Shown: piece after piece, positions 24,195 through 30,350 of the stretch
Layout of the letters: each line of letters opens with the position of its first letter
How positions within the stretch are numbered: position 1 is the first letter of the stretch
Assembly: GCA_017937405.1 (NCBI GenBank)
Contig: JAGBDS010000048.1
Location: 1 to 34,173, forward strand
DNA: 34,173 nt
Direction: 5' to 3'
From: Oscillibacter sp.
Lineage (GTDB): Bacteria > Bacillota > Clostridia > Oscillospirales > Oscillospiraceae
Translations under genes and position numbers: made by a program
Notes under the pieces: generated by a model
Database searches by the model: none
Told to the model about the DNA's origin: nothing
The model's input: the letters and a program-made list of their open reading frames with translations, nothing else

Positions 24195-25037
24195 TCAGTT
24201 TTCACTTAAAACAGCGTCATCCTCCGTCTCCACCGCTTCTCCGCCGGAGATGAATTCCAGTCCAGTGGACTTTACGAAGGCCTCCGCCGCGGTGGGGTCG
24301 GCCTTGCCCGCATCCAGTGGCAGGGTGAACAGGGCACCGGTAACGTCCTCCGCCAGGGAGATGGCGCCGTCCTCCGCCGTGGGGAACTGGGCGGGAGAGG
24401 GAACGAACCCTTCATAGATGGCAAAGTACACCGTATGGTCGGCGAATATCTCCAGGTTCTGGGTGTCAAAGAGGTAGTAGGCCACGCCGTCCTCCACAAA
24501 GGACTGGCAGGTGGCGCCCAGGGTCCAGCCGTTCACCGCGCTGACGTGATACCCGGCCACCAGCGGGGAATAACTCAGCTCCGGCTGCTCCGCCAGAGGT
24601 GTGCCGTCGGTTCTGGCTACCGTAAACACGGCATAGGTGCGGTCGCGGACGGTCTCGCCATTGTATTCGGCAGGCAGGGCGGACAGGTCCTCCCCGGATA
24701 CCATACCCAGCAGGGTAAAGGTATAGTCTCCGCTGGCGGCGGTCTCATTCAGGACCACCACGTCATCACTTTGGAATGCGGCGGCCAGGGGCGCGTCCTC
24801 CAGCCGCTCCGCTACGTCGGCGGGGGTCAGAAACAGCACGGCGGACACGGACACCGCCAGCAGGGCCACGGCGGCGGCCGCCAAAACCGCCAGTTTTTTA
24901 GGTTTAGAAAAGTTCATGTTTTGCGTCTCCTTTTCAGTTTCCCGGAGGCGGGCCCACAGCAGCGCTTCGGTGCGCGCCTGGAGATCCGGGGAAAAGGGGA
25001 TCTGGTCAAAGGCAGCTTTGTATTTCTCTCGGTTCAT
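24195..25037 (-). CDS. Putative membrane-bound anti-sigma factor
   Basis: Predicted 280-residue single-pass protein. About 46 cytoplasmic residues (with helical ALLWARLRETEKET) precede one membrane segment (KLAVLAAAAVALLAVSVSAV, about 47-70). An outside domain of roughly 200 residues follows, rich in Ala, Glu and Thr, with a beta-type pattern and no zinc-binding HxxxCxxC motif. The gene starts inside the stop codon of the ECF sigma gene (ATGA overlap). This pairing and topology are the main evidence for an anti-sigma role, in which the outer domain would sense a signal and the inner part hold the sigma factor. The sensory domain resembles DUF4179-like partners of ECF factors but I cannot assign it firmly. 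Confidence 0.75.
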   Translation of the reverse strand: MNREKYKAAFDQIPFSPDLQARTEALLWARLRETEKETQNMNFSKPKKLAVLAAAAVALLAVSVSAVLFLTPADVAERLEDAPLAAAFQSDDVVVLNETAASGDYTFTLLGMVSGEDLSALPAEYNGETVRDRTYAVFTVARTDGTPLAEQPELSYSPLVAGYHVSAVNGWTLGATCQSFVEDGVAYYLFDTQNLEIFADHTVYFAIYEGFVPSPAQFPTAEDGAISLAEDVTGALFTLPLDAGKADPTAAEAFVKSTGLEFISGGEAVETEDDAVLSEN

Positions 25038-25513
25038 GCGTCATCCTCCTTCAGCAGCCGCCGCAGCCGCTCCCGGCCGTGGGCCAGGCGGGTGCCCACC
25101 GTGGGGGTGGGGACGCCCAGCAGCTTTGCGATCTCTTTGATGGAATAGCCCTCATAATAATAGAGGTGGATGACCGCGCTGTACGGCTCCGGCAGGGCAC
25201 GGACGACGGTGAGCAGCGCGCTCCCCTCCGACGGTACCGCGGCCTGAGCCGCTTCCTCCAACGGGACGTTCCTCCGTGCGGCGGAACGGCGGAGGTCGCT
25301 GGCGCGGTGAAGGGTGCTTCGGATCAGCCATGCCTTTTCGTGCTCACTATCCCGGAATGATGGCCGGGCGGTGAGCAGCTTCAAAAACACCTCCTGGACA
25401 ACGTCCTCCGCGTCGGCGGGGTCATCCAGACGGGTGCAGGCCAGCCGCAGCAGCATAGGGCTGTATGTCTCCACGATACGGCTGATGGTCTCATCGCTAG
25501 CAAATGAAGCCAT
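25034..25513 (-). CDS. ECF-type RNA polymerase sigma factor
   Basis: Predicted 159-residue group IV sigma factor. Region 2 is seen in LLRLACTRLDDPADAEDVVQEVFLKLL, containing the DAEDVVQEVF core used for core polymerase binding and -10 melting. Region 4 follows in LPEPYSAVIHLYYYEGYSIKEIAKLLG and TVGTRLAHGRERLR, the -35-binding helix-turn-helix. The start at 25513 (MASFASDE) has GGGAG about eight bases upstream; a GTG at 25540 lacks a site. The gap to the lspA-like stop upstream is only 70 bases and is mostly a terminator hairpin. There is little room for a normal promoter, so readthrough or a very compact self-recognised promoter is likely. Confidence 0.93.
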   Translation of the reverse strand: MASFASDETISRIVETYSPMLLRLACTRLDDPADAEDVVQEVFLKLLTARPSFRDSEHEKAWLIRSTLHRASDLRRSAARRNVPLEEAAQAAVPSEGSALLTVVRALPEPYSAVIHLYYYEGYSIKEIAKLLGVPTPTVGTRLAHGRERLRRLLKEDDA

Positions 25514-25541
25514 GTTCCTCACTCCCTTCACCCTAAACACG

Positions 25542-25583: not shown

Positions 25584-26000
25584 TTATCTTTTCTTCTTCC
25601 GCAGAGACAGGCACAGCCCGCCCAGTAGAATGGCGAAATCCGCCAGGTTGAAGATGTACTGCTTGATTCGTCCCGGCGCCTTGGGGAACTGGACGTAATC
25701 GTAGACCTTTCCCTGCCGCAGCCGCTCCAGCAGGTTGCTGATGCCGCCGCCCAAAATCAGGCCCACGCCCACAGGCGAGCGCTTCCGCTGGGTCCACAGG
25801 GCGCCCAGCGCCGCGAAGGACGCGGCCACCACCATGTCGAAGCGGATGCCCAGTCCAAAGGCCGCGCCCTCGTTCCAGAGGGCGCGCAGCTTCACCCGGC
25901 CTCCGGCGTATTCGCTGTCCCGGCGGCTGGTCCTGTTCAGATACCAACGGGCGGCAGTGCATCCACCTAGGGTCGTCAGTGCGGTCAATACCGTCAGCAT
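25584..26000 (-). CDS. Signal peptidase II-like protein (LspA family)
   Basis: Predicted 138-residue membrane protein of the LspA family, aspartic proteases that cut prolipoprotein signal peptides in the membrane. Conserved elements are NEGAAFG (43-49), the GGGISNLLERLRQGKVYDY block (84-102) and FNLADFAIL (117-125). The two catalytic aspartates correspond to Asp101 and Asp121 and are both present. The usual N-L-x-D-R motif reads NLLER, a conservative Asp-to-Glu change. It is a little shorter than the usual 150-170 residues. The start overlaps the end of the GTPase-NYN fusion gene by seven bases, so the pair is translationally coupled, an unusual partnership. It could be the main LspA or a paralogue. 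Confidence 0.85.
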   Translation of the reverse strand: MLTVLTALTTLGGCTAARWYLNRTSRRDSEYAGGRVKLRALWNEGAAFGLGIRFDMVVAASFAALGALWTQRKRSPVGVGLILGGGISNLLERLRQGKVYDYVQFPKAPGRIKQYIFNLADFAILLGGLCLSLRKKKR

Positions 26001-28630
26001 GGCTTGTCCTCCTTGTTCCGGGCTTTCTCCATGGCGGAGCGCATCGCCCCGTTTTTGCCCTTCTGATTATTGCGAAACAGCACGTCCGCGATCTGGCTTC
26101 GGACGTGGGCCATCTCCTCGTGGAAATTGGAGGCCGAGAGCCGCAGGGCGCCGTGGCCCAGAATGATGAGCTGCTCCGGGCCGTCGGACGTGGCGACCTT
26201 GACCCGGTGCTTCCTGCCAATCTCATAGGTGGCCTTTTCGATGTAGGCATCCGCCGTCTCCGCCTCCTTGGTGTAGACCACATGGATGTTGTGGTACTTT
26301 TCCACGCTGCCCAGGCCGCCCTTCACCTTGTAGGCGTCGAACACAGCGATGACATGGCACTTCTTATAGCCCTGATAGTCGCACAGCAGGTCGCACAAGG
26401 TCTTACGGGCGGCGTCCAGGCTGTCCTTGGCGATGGCTTTCAGCTCATCCCAGGCGAAAATGATGTTGTAGCCGTCTACCAGCAGGTATTCCTCCCCCCG
26501 GAACTGCTCCCGGATGGCCCGCTTCTCCTCCTCGCTGTCCGAGGAAACGGGGCGCTTGGGCGCCCGGGGCTGGACGAAGGCCCGCTGCTTCACAGGGCCG
26601 TAGGTCCGCTCGAAGATGGCCTGCAGCTCCTTGTCCTGCTGGAGCGTCCCGGCATAGCTCCCGCTCCGCCGGGGCTGGGGTGCGGGCGCTTCTTCCGCCA
26701 CTTTGATACCCAGCCGTAGGCCGCTGTCCACATGGGCATGGGCGCTTACCTCGTCCCACTTCACCGTGTAGCCCGCGCCGTGGCCGCAGAACACGGAGTC
26801 CGGCGTGTTGTCCACGTCCCGCTCCGGGTCGTAGCCCACGGCCTCCACCACCGCCGTCTGGTCAGCGCAGGGGCGGTAGCCCGCCGGGGTGCACAGCAGC
26901 CGCCCACGGCCCCGGGTGTAGGCCGTGACCTCGGCGGCATAGCCTCGGAGGGCCGCCACCGGGGCGGAGCCGGTGAGGACGGTCTCCTCCCCAAAGGTCT
27001 CCGGCGGGGAGGTCTCGCCGTTCATCCGCTGGAGGTCGCTCATGGCCCGGCCCACCTGCTCGGCGGGCAGCTCCAGCCGGAAGTCGTACCACGGCTCCAG
27101 CAGCACGCTCTCGGCCTGCATCAAGCCCTGACGCACCGCCCGATAGGTGGCCTGGCGGAAGTCGCCGCCCTCAGTGTGCTTCACATGGGCCCGGCCCGCC
27201 ACCAGGGTGATTTTTATGTCCGTAATGGGTGACCCGGTCAGCACGCCCAAATGGGGCTTTTCCGCCAGATGGGTCAAAATCAACCGCTGCCAGTTCAAAT
27301 CCAGCTCGTCGGTGGGACAGTCGGCGGCCAAAATCAGGCCGCTGCCCCGGGGAGCGGGCTCCAAGAGGAGATGCACTTCAGCATAGTGGCGCAGGGGTTC
27401 GAAATGGCCGATGCCCTCCACGGCGTTTGCGATGGTTTCCCGGTAGCAGATGGCGCCCTCTCCGAAATCCACCTCCATATCGAACCGCTCCCTCAGGCGG
27501 CGGCGCAGGATCTCCATCTGCACCTCGCCCATGAGCTGGATATGAATCTCTTTTGCCTGCTCGTTCCACACCACATGGAGCTGGGGGTCTTCCTCCTCCA
27601 ACTGCCGCAGGCGGGAAAGGGCGGTCTGGGGGTCCGTGCCGTCAGTCAGCTCCACCCGGTAATTCAGCACCGGCTCCAAAAGGGGTCCGGTCCAGTTCTT
27701 TTCAAAGCCCAAGCCATCGCCGGGAGAGGTGTGGAAAAGCCCTGTGACCGCCGCCACCGTTCCGGCGGGAGCCTCCTCCACGGTCTTGAATTTGGCCCCG
27801 GAATAGATGCGGAGCTGGTCAGCCTTTTCCCCGTCCTCCGTGAGGACGGCTTTCACCCGCAGGGTGCCGCCGGTAACCTTCAGATACGTCAGGCGGGCAC
27901 CCTGCACGTCCCGGGCCACCTTGAACACCCGGGCGCCGAAGTCCGCCGGGTAGTCCGGCACCGGAGCGTACCGGGCCAGGGCATCCAGAAAGTCGTCCAC
28001 GCCTTCCACTTTCAGGGCGGAGCCGAAAAAGCAGGGAAACAGCTTCCGCTGGTGAATCATGGCGGTGATGTCTCCGTCCGTAACGGTTCCGGTGTCCAGA
28101 TACCTCTCCAGCACCCCTTCGTCGCAGACGGCGGCTTCCTCTGCCCATTCCTCCGGCGGAGCGGAGAAATCCACGCAGCCGCCGTCCAGCCGCCGCTTCA
28201 GTTCCTCCATCAGCCCGGATTTATCGGCGCCCGCCAGGTCCATTTTATTCACAAAGAGGAATGTGGGCACGCCGTACCGCTCCAGCAGCCGCCACAGTGT
28301 CCGGGTGTGGGCCTGGACGCCGTCGGTGCCGCTGATGACCAGCACGGCGCAGTCCAGCACCCGGAGGGTCCGCTCCGCCTCTGCGGAGAAGTCCACATGG
28401 CCGGGGGTGTCCAGCAGCGTCACTTCCGTGTCTCCTATGGACAGCAGCGCCTGCTTGGAGAAGATGGTGATGCCCCGCTCCCGCTCGATGGTATCCGTAT
28501 CCAGAAAGGCGTCCCGGTGGTCCACCCGGCCCAGCTTCCGCAGCGCACCGCTGCGGTAGAGCAGTGCCTCAGACAGCGTCGTTTTTCCGGCGTCCACATG
28601 GGCCAGGATGCCCAAGACCAGTTTCTTCAT
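25994..28630 (-). CDS. TetM-like translation GTPase fused to a Rae1/YacP-type NYN nuclease domain
   Basis: Predicted 878-residue protein. Residues 1 to about 640 follow EF-G/ribosomal-protection factors: G1 AHVDAGKTT (10-18), G2 ERGITIF (51-57), G3 DTPGH (74-78), G4 NKMD (128-131) and G5 near GSALKVEGVDDF, then domains II-V with a TetM-like end (RGRGRLLCTPAGY). After a charged linker, residues about 713-865 form an NYN domain like Bacillus Rae1/YacP: LLVDGYNII (Asp719), VFDAYKVKGG (Asp765), KEAETADAYIEKA (Glu791, Asp794) and VATSDGPEQ (Asp816). All acidic positions expected of a PIN/NYN nuclease are present. TetM-type factors bind the A site and Rae1 cuts mRNA there, so a ribosome-acting nuclease is inferred. 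Start: GGGAG seven bases upstream. Tetracycline resistance is not implied. Confidence 0.88.
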   Translation of the reverse strand: MKKLVLGILAHVDAGKTTLSEALLYRSGALRKLGRVDHRDAFLDTDTIERERGITIFSKQALLSIGDTEVTLLDTPGHVDFSAEAERTLRVLDCAVLVISGTDGVQAHTRTLWRLLERYGVPTFLFVNKMDLAGADKSGLMEELKRRLDGGCVDFSAPPEEWAEEAAVCDEGVLERYLDTGTVTDGDITAMIHQRKLFPCFFGSALKVEGVDDFLDALARYAPVPDYPADFGARVFKVARDVQGARLTYLKVTGGTLRVKAVLTEDGEKADQLRIYSGAKFKTVEEAPAGTVAAVTGLFHTSPGDGLGFEKNWTGPLLEPVLNYRVELTDGTDPQTALSRLRQLEEEDPQLHVVWNEQAKEIHIQLMGEVQMEILRRRLRERFDMEVDFGEGAICYRETIANAVEGIGHFEPLRHYAEVHLLLEPAPRGSGLILAADCPTDELDLNWQRLILTHLAEKPHLGVLTGSPITDIKITLVAGRAHVKHTEGGDFRQATYRAVRQGLMQAESVLLEPWYDFRLELPAEQVGRAMSDLQRMNGETSPPETFGEETVLTGSAPVAALRGYAAEVTAYTRGRGRLLCTPAGYRPCADQTAVVEAVGYDPERDVDNTPDSVFCGHGAGYTVKWDEVSAHAHVDSGLRLGIKVAEEAPAPQPRRSGSYAGTLQQDKELQAIFERTYGPVKQRAFVQPRAPKRPVSSDSEEEKRAIREQFRGEEYLLVDGYNIIFAWDELKAIAKDSLDAARKTLCDLLCDYQGYKKCHVIAVFDAYKVKGGLGSVEKYHNIHVVYTKEAETADAYIEKATYEIGRKHRVKVATSDGPEQLIILGHGALRLSASNFHEEMAHVRSQIADVLFRNNQKGKNGAMRSAMEKARNKEDKPC

Positions 28631-28712: not shown

Positions 28713-30350
28713 TCAGATGGGGATTTGCCGTCCGCCTGTCCGGCGGTAGAGACGGTGGGAGATGGACACCACCGTCCGCCGCGCCGCCGCCCGCTCCAGC
28801 GCGGTGAGAACGGTCTGTTCCGTGTCGCCGTCCAGGTTGGCGGTGATCTCGTCCAGCAGCAAAATGGCCGGGTCCGCCGCCACCGCCCGGGCGATGGCTA
28901 AAAGCTGGAACTGTCCCTGAGAGAACAGCCCCTCCTTGCAGGGCGTGTCGTAGCCCTTCTCCAAGCTGCAAATCGTCTCGTGGAGCCCCACCAGCCGGGC
29001 GGCCTCCTCCGCCTTTTCGCGGGTGATACCGTCGTCCCAGAGGGTGATCTGGTCCAGCACCGTTCCCGGCACCAGATGGAATGCCTGTTCCACATAGCCG
29101 AACAGGTGCCGCCGGAGGTGGGGCGGGACCGATGCCGCGTCAGCGCCGTAAATGCGGACCGCGCCTGCCCGGGGACGGTACAGTCCCAGCAGCAGCTTGA
29201 ACACGGTGCTCTTGCCCGCCCCGGTGCGGCCCGTCAGGGTCACGCTCTCGCCCTCTTTTACGGTAAATGCACAGCTTTGCAAAACGTCACGCTCGCCGTC
29301 GTAGCTGAAGGTCACGTCCGCCACCTCCACGGCAGGCTTTCCGCTGCGGCGCAGGGCGTTCAGGGTCAGGGAATCGTCCGTCGGGTTCTCCTCCGGCTCG
29401 CTCAGAAATTCCCGGATGCGGCGGACGCCCGCCACGGCGGACTGGACGCTCTGGATCTCCATGCCAATGCTCTCCAGCGGGCCGAACACCTTGCCCACAT
29501 AGGCGATGACCGCCACGGCGGTGCCCACGGACATGCCGAACAGCTCCTGCATCCCGCCGCCTAAGGCGGCGCACACCATCATCACCGCCACCACCAGGGC
29601 GCTGATGACGAGGACAATGGGGGAGTAGATGGAATCGTAAAAGTTGGACTTCTCCATAGCCTGGTAGCTGTCCTGAATGGCGGCGTCGTAGCGGTCGGCC
29701 ATGTACCGCTCCTTTCGCAGGGTGTGGACCATGCGGATACAGTGGATGGTCTCCGGGACGTGGTGGCTCACCCGGCTCACCGCCGCCCGGTTCTGGAGCT
29801 GGGAGGCCAGCATCCGCTTCTGGAACGTCCGGGTCATCCACAGCAGCAGGGGCGTCACCAGCACCATCAGGATGCCAAGGCCCCGGCTCTTCACGGAGAT
29901 GACCGCCAGGATGCTCAGCACCTTGCACACATCCACCGCCATGCTGACAATGCCGGAGGAGAACAGGGACTCCACGGTGTCCACGTCTCCCACGAACCGG
30001 GAGGCCACCGCTCCCGGCTCCCGCCCGGCAAACCAGGCCGCGGGCAGGCGGGACAGCTTGGCGCACATGGCCCTTCGCAGGGCACGGGTCAGCTTCTGGC
30101 CCAGTACCGTCAGCAGAAACTCCTTGCCGGAGTCGAAAACGCCCGCCAGGGCCAGGGTACCGAAATACAGCAGTGCCAGGGAAAGAGGGATACCCGCGCC
30201 GCCGGTCAGGCCGTTCACCGCCTGCTCCAGCACCAAGGGCGGCGTCAGGCCCAGCAGCACCGCCCCGGCCACCGCCGCCAGCAGCGCCAGAGTCAGAGGC
30301 CAGGTCCGCCGCAGTTCCCGGAGAAAAATGCGGGAAATCTTATTCTCCAC
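28713..30350 (-). CDS. ABC exporter half-transporter, canonical Walker B subunit
   Basis: Predicted 545-residue half-transporter: six membrane segments (to about 320), then an ATPase domain. Walker A is GRTGAGKST and Walker B is ILLLDEITANLD with catalytic Glu501. The signature is degenerate, FSQGQ (476-480) instead of LSGGQ. The domain ends shortly after the H-loop (SISHRLYRRTGGRQIPI), shorter than most exporters; no frame that restores a longer end is obvious, so I regard it as natural. The GTG start at 30350 has GGAGGGG six bases upstream and overlaps the partner gene by 11 bases. With the upstream subunit it forms a heterodimer in which only one ATP site is complete. The substrate is unknown; the MarR gene suggests a drug or metabolite. 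Confidence 0.9.
   Translation of the reverse strand: MENKISRIFLRELRRTWPLTLALLAAVAGAVLLGLTPPLVLEQAVNGLTGGAGIPLSLALLYFGTLALAGVFDSGKEFLLTVLGQKLTRALRRAMCAKLSRLPAAWFAGREPGAVASRFVGDVDTVESLFSSGIVSMAVDVCKVLSILAVISVKSRGLGILMVLVTPLLLWMTRTFQKRMLASQLQNRAAVSRVSHHVPETIHCIRMVHTLRKERYMADRYDAAIQDSYQAMEKSNFYDSIYSPIVLVISALVVAVMMVCAALGGGMQELFGMSVGTAVAVIAYVGKVFGPLESIGMEIQSVQSAVAGVRRIREFLSEPEENPTDDSLTLNALRRSGKPAVEVADVTFSYDGERDVLQSCAFTVKEGESVTLTGRTGAGKSTVFKLLLGLYRPRAGAVRIYGADAASVPPHLRRHLFGYVEQAFHLVPGTVLDQITLWDDGITREKAEEAARLVGLHETICSLEKGYDTPCKEGLFSQGQFQLLAIARAVAADPAILLLDEITANLDGDTEQTVLTALERAAARRTVVSISHRLYRRTGGRQIPI

Follow-up and report, generated by a model that had tools for sequence, protein, structure and literature searches.

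In many gut Clostridia, a fusion protein that joins a translational GTPase of the EF-G/Tet type to a nuclease of the Rae1 (YacP) type stands in for the free Rae1 enzyme. The representative treated here is encoded in a 34,173-nucleotide stretch of DNA from Oscillibacter sp. (contig JAGBDS010000048.1 of assembly GCA_017937405.1), which we refer to, at its full length, as the window. Rae1 is described as an endonuclease of the ribosomal A site (PMC6613710) whose action depends on translation (PMC10100781), and it is listed among the enzymes able to cut A-site mRNA where transfer-messenger RNA (tmRNA) needs a free A site (PMC12320835). We consider it somewhat more probable than not that the fusion is a translation factor bringing its own Rae1-type mRNA endonuclease to ribosomes in a GTP-dependent manner.

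The architecture itself has already been reported: according to Atkinson 2015 (BMC Genomics 16:78, PMC4342817), Tet proteins of ten clostridiales gained a YacP-like NYN domain, for which RNase-based resistance was suggested. Those proteins resemble the one in the window in combining a Tet-like translational GTPase with a YacP-like NYN domain, and in belonging to Clostridiales. The first-pass annotation of the window, made from its sequence alone, knew of no study of the function of such a protein; none was found in the open-licence literature searched, whereas the architecture was in print. What is new is the assignment of the GTPase to a non-Tet clade with lysine at the position of TetM Pro509, the finding of unfused clade members that end at the start of the linker, the replacement of Rae1, and the decay of a C-terminal Rae1 motif. 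Neither the replacement, nor the changed tip of domain IV, nor the decayed Rae1 C-terminus is described in the available part of the Atkinson account. Replacement and decay together make the fusion a concrete, testable case despite the prior report of its architecture.

Replacement of free Rae1 by the fusion

The first-pass annotation had read the C-terminal part of the protein as Rae1-like, and this reading is borne out by Pfam, by sequence matching to the PDB, by the predicted fold and by all four aspartates. The domain search that it had proposed, now run, assigns this part to NYN_YacP (PF05991) at 165.6 bits against a cut-off of 24.6. At E <= 1, a sequence search of the PDB with the NYN part matches Rae1 alone (5mq8/5mq9; E 2e-25), and when the part is modelled alone (predicted local distance difference test score, pLDDT, 86; predicted TM-score, pTM, 0.78), Bacillus subtilis Rae1 (5mq8, 5mq9) is the best Foldseek match (E 2e-11) and the sole PDB neighbour below E 1e-3, sharing the NYN fold, the four aspartates and 37-40% identity in the Foldseek alignments. 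Because Rae1 is both the sole PDB sequence match and the best Foldseek match, we do not attribute the resemblance to chance. Rae1 residues D7, D53, D81 and D104 align with D719, D765, D794 and D816 of the fusion; D719, D765 and D794 are kept in every fused sequence (92/92), and D816 in all but one (91/92). The pair Asp719/Asp816 singled out by the annotation thus corresponds to Rae1 D7/D104, with D794 the counterpart of D81.

The fused sequences derive from a GTDB scan, in which the best 80 of 596 confirmed stretches, a set biased towards the fusion, all carry the one-frame architecture (80/80). A 72-row alignment took in 71 of these 80 loci, the nine that were excluded having no AHVD motif close to the start, and 20 further rows brought the fused set to 92; no pair of these is at least 95% identical, and they form 87 clusters at 90%.

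To describe distribution we use 293 genomes sampled evenly from the class, the window's own genome (G000) included. NYN_YacP scores above its cut-off in 191 of them, and the fusion is present in 103, a count that includes seven genomes recognized from short frames holding both profiles (313-789 residues); the expectation of the annotation that the architecture would recur in Clostridia is therefore confirmed. Only one of the 103, G401, also has a free yacP. Free yacP without the fusion occurs in 86/293 genomes (86 of the 190 non-fusion genomes), 13 of which also have an unfused GTPase; sub-cut-off NYN matches in G238, G292, G326 and G379 were not counted, and G403, with its NYN in a 342-residue frame, was counted separately. 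Fusion and free yacP exclude each other (Fisher p 9e-19, computed before G000 was counted as a fusion genome and ignoring kinship). Since shared ancestry inflates whole-sample tables, the test was also done within families: across six families, picked for holding both forms, one genome has both against 5.4 expected (P 1.2e-4). In a sample of 120 genomes of the family, 73 contain a match, one each, and 69 of these 73 matches lie in frames of at least 814 residues, the other four being shorter (602, 266, 160 and 125). The single NYN_YacP match in the window's genome, which is 89% complete, is the fusion itself; the separate yacP that the annotation had suggested looking for was not found there.

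The chromosomal position of free yacP gives a second view of the replacement. Free clostridial Rae1 relatives lie mostly in an rlmB-sigma region, a sigma-factor gene following in 19/20 loci and rlmB preceding in 16/20; we take the genes beside free yacP, by eye, to be rlmB, mrnC and SigH. The fusion, by contrast, sits in other contexts, and that in the window is not at this location. Among 30 hand-picked fusion genomes, an RlmB match was found in 30/30 and a sigma gene within 1.5 kb of it in 11; the remaining 19, the window's genome among them, had no sigma gene within this distance, and the slot was judged in the 11. No yacP match occupies the slot in 10 of the 11 genomes with adjacent genes, where the gaps measure 29-589 bp and the longest holds no yacP frame. 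The exception, with yacP between rlmB and the sigma gene, is again G401 (L041 / L069 / L191), the sole class genome with both forms. As an aside, G401 offers a natural test case for a division of labour between fusion and free yacP. Given how common the fusion is in the sampled Clostridia, it may belong to the standard equipment of mRNA quality control in these bacteria.

The fused and free nucleases also differ at their C-termini. LExxR[RK] is the usual ending of free Rae1 proteins; the B. subtilis enzyme, which is free, closes with FEKWRR (W164-R166), ending EKWRR, whereas the NYN domain here is tethered to a GTPase and its motif is degenerate. R166P is among the suppressors of an efp mutant and was classed by its authors as loss-of-function (PMC6613710), and in our alignment R166 falls inside the LExxR[RK] motif. 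The first motif pattern used was found in 24/32 free sequences, some of them identical, and in 1/92 fused ones. With identical sequences removed (28 free sequences; 12 of the 32 were top-scoring matches of the class scan), LExxR[RK], a pattern widened after the first result was known, matches 25/28 free against 1/92 fused proteins. A loose pattern matches 26/28 free against 12/92 fused proteins, the window protein (MEKARN) among the 12, so that complete loss of the motif is too strong a statement and was rejected. The frame ends before the motif in 32/92 fused and 0/28 free proteins. Since the 92 fused sequences form one clade, these counts are not independent events, and the history would be closer to one event followed by later decay than to 91 independent losses. 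Decay in the fusions, set against retention in the free forms, suggests that the GTPase took over something, and we infer from the sequences that this may have been the docking role of the Rae1 C-terminal tail.

A GTPase beside, but not within, the tetracycline protection proteins

The fusion lies in one frame, as the first-pass annotation had stated without naming a strand (it is the minus strand), with Pfam GTPase domains and NYN_YacP in an 878-residue open reading frame (ORF) and all the motifs quoted in the annotation present in the protein. Its N-terminal part has the make-up of an EF-G/Tet translational GTPase, with domains G, II (marginal), III, IV and V and intact G motifs (Table 1). 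The G1 and G3 residues do not vary across the 72 aligned fused sequences, and the DTPGH histidine is kept in 92/92. An AlphaFold2 (AF2) model of the full protein, built on 72 relatives, has a mean pLDDT of 81 and a pTM of 0.57; the 50 Foldseek matches listed for it are, judged by their titles, EF-G-type factors, with modest TM-scores of 0.33-0.53 by query length. A relative of the fusion is annotated as "translation factor GTPase family protein".

The kinship of this GTPase with Tet proteins is real, and the drug-site residue is missing. Identity is about 30-32% to TetM, TetO and Tet36 (30% to TetM), and 32% to one EF-G. The best NCBIfam model is tet_protect (NF012153), at 421 bits against a Tet cut-off of 775, and the EF-G model TIGR00484 gives 300 bits against a cut-off of 659. 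Tet proteins occupy the A site and overlap with the EF-G site, and TetM Pro509, placed in the tetracycline site, makes contact with C1054 (PMC8161019). The fusion has lysine in the Pro509 column (91/92 fused, 20/20 unfused clade members) and, two positions earlier in the Tyr507 column, histidine as in EF-G (91/92 and 20/20). These residues belong to a domain IV tip loop of the form HxKHTxGGDFR, found in 90/92 fused and 20/20 unfused clade members and in 0/5 Tet/EF-G references; the SPVST loop present in all four Tet-type references compared occurs in 0/92 fused and 0/20 unfused proteins.

A careful tree, rooted on RF3 and containing 10 of the 21 fused rows and 11 of the 19 GTPase-only rows (one empty EF-G2 row was dropped, and the partial GTPase-only row L173 was excluded from the trees), places fused and unfused proteins in one clade (100/100). 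Six Tet-type proteins form their own clade (100/100), which excludes the fusion clade and to which it is sister with moderate support (94/85); the EF-G/EF-G2 rows stand apart in a clade of their own (100/99). The fused rows group together with support of 100 in a quick tree (21 rows) and 100/99 in the careful tree (10 rows). A sister position of L163/L164 to the fusion, obtained in the quick tree at 80, is absent from the careful tree and was discarded.

The fusion clade therefore resembles TetM, TetO, TetW, TetS and Tet36 in its five-domain GTPase and its sister position, and differs from the Tet protection proteins in lacking the SPVST loop and Pro509, in having a clade-specific tail and, in the fused members, in the added NYN domain. 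It resembles EF-G in fold and in the histidine at the aligned tip of domain IV, and differs from it in the low identity, the score far under the TIGR00484 cut-off and the separate EF-G/EF-G2 clade. On these sequence comparisons the GTPase is not a typical Tet protection protein but a member of a clade probably sister to TetM/TetO, so that the "ribosomal-protection-type" label of the first-pass annotation is not supported, and a label of resistance is probably wrong. The clade is a warning for resistance annotation, as its genes score well on Tet models yet are without the drug-site proline.

A profile of residues 500-638 (domain V and the tail) detects not only fusions but also proteins in frames of 624-729 residues, from which an unfused set of 20 loci from 19 genomes was taken. 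By alignment these proteins stop soon after the tail, around residue 633 of the window protein, the point at which the linker of the fusion starts; each neighbour is shared by 2 of the 20 loci at most. In a wider sample of the phylum the profile matches at E <= 1e-25 in 21/299 genomes, 18 in frames of at least 857 residues and three in frames of 651-657. The tail itself (residues 592-633) is common to fused and unfused members and was not seen in the TetM, TetO, Tet36 and EF-G sequences compared.

In the fused proteins, the tail is followed by a linker with pLDDT below 50 at residues 640-660 and 682-709 and a helix in between (663-677), and the NYN domain, in the same model, closes with a long helix. 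Between W625 and D719 lie 79-124 residues (median 90.5) across the 92 fused sequences, on which we base the view of the linker as a long tether. The short linker helix may be a binding element.

A proposed mechanism and its alternatives

In the mechanism that we favour, the EF-G/Tet-like GTPase would land on the factor site of a ribosome left with an empty A site by a pause in translation, and its domain IV would probe the A site. Domain IV would then withdraw, probably on GTP hydrolysis, which would let the tethered Rae1 domain into that A site to cut the mRNA; trans-translation and exonucleases could then clear the resulting complex. The GTPase would in this way replace the ribosome docking done in part by the LExxRR tail of free Rae1. 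Domain IV and the NYN domain would compete for one A site, which is why a sequential hand-over is favoured, and the two probably act in turn. That the protein binds ribosomes, hydrolyses GTP and cuts RNA is a prediction, as are the sequence of the steps, the kind of stall and the role of the C-terminal motif. A parallel exists in eukaryotic no-go decay, where Hbs1-Dom34 embodies the same idea of a translational GTPase carrying the stall response to the A site; Hbs1 is an EF-Tu-type GTPase with a separate tRNA-like partner, Dom34, whereas the fusion has an EF-G-type GTPase and a covalent nuclease.

The first-pass annotation had suggested such a delivery of the nuclease to stalled ribosomes by the GTPase. 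Its observation was right, and delivery is a plausible idea that now has more support than it had, gaining from the replacement of free Rae1 and from the decay of the Rae1 C-terminal motif. A fuller version, which we offer tentatively and think more apt to fail than to hold in all its parts, is that of a single-chain, GTP-gated no-go decay factor whose GTPase would sample ribosomes that have paused and pass the A site on to the tethered Rae1 as domain IV leaves, which displaced free Rae1 in much of Clostridia and in which the Rae1 docking tail became redundant. If this were true, the unfused members of the clade would be native relatives of the tetracycline protection proteins, with no part in resistance. 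The fusion joins two questions, namely how Rae1 picks its ribosomes and what TetM relatives without the drug-site residue do; and both become testable: were the nuclease steered by the GTPase, the mRNA cut sites should shift once the GTPase is deleted or frozen.

Several results weigh against delivery and hand-over. About 95/293 class genomes have neither the fusion nor its parts. Eight have the GTPase only and no free yacP, which indicates that the GTPase probably has work of its own; among the eight, G353 has an NYN on the same contig in a different frame, and the GTPase match of G321 lies in a frame of 293 residues. The Rosetta-stone expectation that GTPase-only genes accompany free yacP did not reach significance in non-fusion genomes (13/21 vs 73/170, p 0.11; the 170 include G000, a fusion genome), and GTPase and Rae1 parts are thus not obligate partners. 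A clade of fused NYN domains only was not recovered in the NYN tree, where two free NYNs fall with the fused ones, although the AU test did not reject it (AU p 0.233); the two free NYNs come from G343 (L064 + L168) and G327 (L058 + L182), each with separate NYN and GTPase genes in one genome, and group with the fused NYNs (94/91). They may represent fission, or an older, pre-fusion state. Domain IV and the NYN domain are not expected to fit one A site together. No hint of ribosome rescue comes from conserved neighbours in the 101 fused loci examined, and the motif counts carry the burden, noted above, of a pattern widened after the fact and of shared descent. Two side observations belong here: the G327/G343 NYNs keep a C-terminal LExxR-type motif, and on contig C121 of G353 the NYN and GTPase profile matches lie close together in frames of different length, as in a split or broken fusion.

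Some of these same results favour a reading in which an EF-G-like helper and a free-acting Rae1 were joined in one chain by chance, as two independent activities without delivery. GTPase-only and NYN-only genes are both found, long disordered stretches of linker allow freedom, and G343 and G327 carry the separate genes with an NYN that groups with the fused ones. We nevertheless regard this reading as unlikely, since a single fusion clade is maintained across many families, fusion genomes are without free Rae1 (one exception in 103) and the C-terminal motif decayed in the fusions and was kept in the free forms. Somewhat lower still we would place a nuclease of ribosome maturation or quality control, with the GTPase on immature or damaged ribosomes and the NYN domain cutting rRNA or tRNA. 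The position of free yacP beside the genes that we took to be rlmB and mrnC speaks for it. So does a proposal, cited in Atkinson 2015 (PMC4342817), that YacP-like NYN proteins serve rRNA and tRNA maturation; however, the closest homologue that has been studied acts on mRNA and needs translation to do so (PMC10100781, PMC6613710), and the roughly 95 genomes with neither part imply that the activity is dispensable.

Resistance to tetracycline or another A-site drug, in which the nuclease would add a second action to the removal of the drug by the GTPase, is the reading suggested in print (Atkinson 2015, PMC4342817), and the closest described relatives are indeed Tet protection proteins, by top NCBIfam model and by sister position. 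We rejected it as the principal explanation on three grounds, namely the absence of the Tet loop, the position in a clade of its own and the distribution, and think it quite improbable: the tet_protect score is under the cut-off, SPVST is absent from fused and unfused members alike, the Pro509 column holds lysine, and there is one NYN_YacP per genome, with the fusion replacing free Rae1 in 103/293 class genomes. The fusion also lies on a 4 Mb contig in single-contig assemblies such as G078 and G238, and two plasmid records cover at least 80% of it, one of which, among the matches listed, carries secA. A pattern found 15 matches in viral contigs, not one of which was confirmed as a relative, and on this result phage cargo was rejected too. 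As translation-targeting nucleases are known in defence, an antiphage or abortive-infection effector that shuts down translation was also considered; it was rejected, and we give it almost no credence, as the sole PADLOC match was LeoA at E 0.03, no neighbour recurs in more than 7/101 loci, and the gene is widespread at one per genome.

Features and surroundings of the gene in the window

Table 1. Coordinates of the fusion gene, its domains and motifs, and the adjoining genes in the window.
Feature	Position	Strand	Basis or remark
GTPase-NYN fusion gene	25994..28630	(-)	one 878-codon ORF (878 residues)
GTP-binding domain, residues 5-223	27962..28618	(-)	Pfam PF00009 GTP_EFTU, E 1.3e-50; AHVDAGKTT, RGITI, DTPGH, NKMD
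Domain II (EF-G_D2), residues 231-306	27713..27940	(-)	PF22042, E 5e-6; marginal, 26.9 bits vs cut-off 27
Domain III (EFG_III), residues 319-390	27461..27676	(-)	PF14492, above curated cut-off
Domain IV (EFG_IV), residues 393-506	27113..27454	(-)	PF03764, above curated cut-off
Domain IV tip loop HxKHTxGGDFR, residues 479-492	27155..27196	(-)	K484 = TetM Pro509 column; H482 = EF-G His column
Domain V (EFG_C), residues 509-591	26858..27106	(-)	PF00679, above curated cut-off
Clade-specific tail (S.FC.HG.G..V.W type), residues 592-633	26732..26857	(-)	alignment; AF2: helix, hairpin, helix
Linker (~80 residues), residues 634-713	26492..26731	(-)	largely disordered in AF2 model
Short linker helix, residues 663-677	26600..26644	(-)	AF2; loose pattern (ELxxIFxxTY type) in 80/92 fused
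NYN_YacP / Rae1 nuclease domain, residues 716-869	26024..26485	(-)	PF05991, E 1.3e-48 (8e-50 in genome scan)
MEKAR, residues 867-871	26018..26032	(-)	degenerate form of free Rae1 C-terminal LExxR[RK]
lspA (signal peptidase II), downstream	25584..26000	(-)	PF01252; 7-nt overlap with the fusion's end
ABC transporter gene, upstream	28713..30350	(-)	PF00664, PF00005; ends 82 nt before the fusion's ATG

Upstream of the fusion, the window carries a gene for a MarR-type regulator together with two ABC genes. An operon of these genes with lspA was considered and rejected, as the arrangement is not recurrent: lspA adjoins the fusion in 4/101 loci, the window included, and the top neighbour cluster appears within five genes in 7/101 fused loci, many of which lie on short contigs, with genes called by a simple longest-ORF rule.

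Elsewhere in the window's genome, the best EF-G match is a 692-residue frame (G000:C107:74390-76432), below the EF-G cut-off and 2.3 kb from the rlmB match; a second EF-G-like match (G000:C18:2882-3154) is only a 115-residue frame, and fusA may be cut by the assembly. Two faecal "bacteriophage" records, MT835563.1 (L078) and MT835514.1 (H32), carry the fusion unannotated; one is marked UNVERIFIED and is perhaps a bacterial scaffold. Downstream of lspA in the window, at 24195-25540 (-), stand a sigma-factor gene of the extracytoplasmic function (ECF) type and then a gene for a 280-residue protein without a Pfam match, perhaps an anti-sigma factor.

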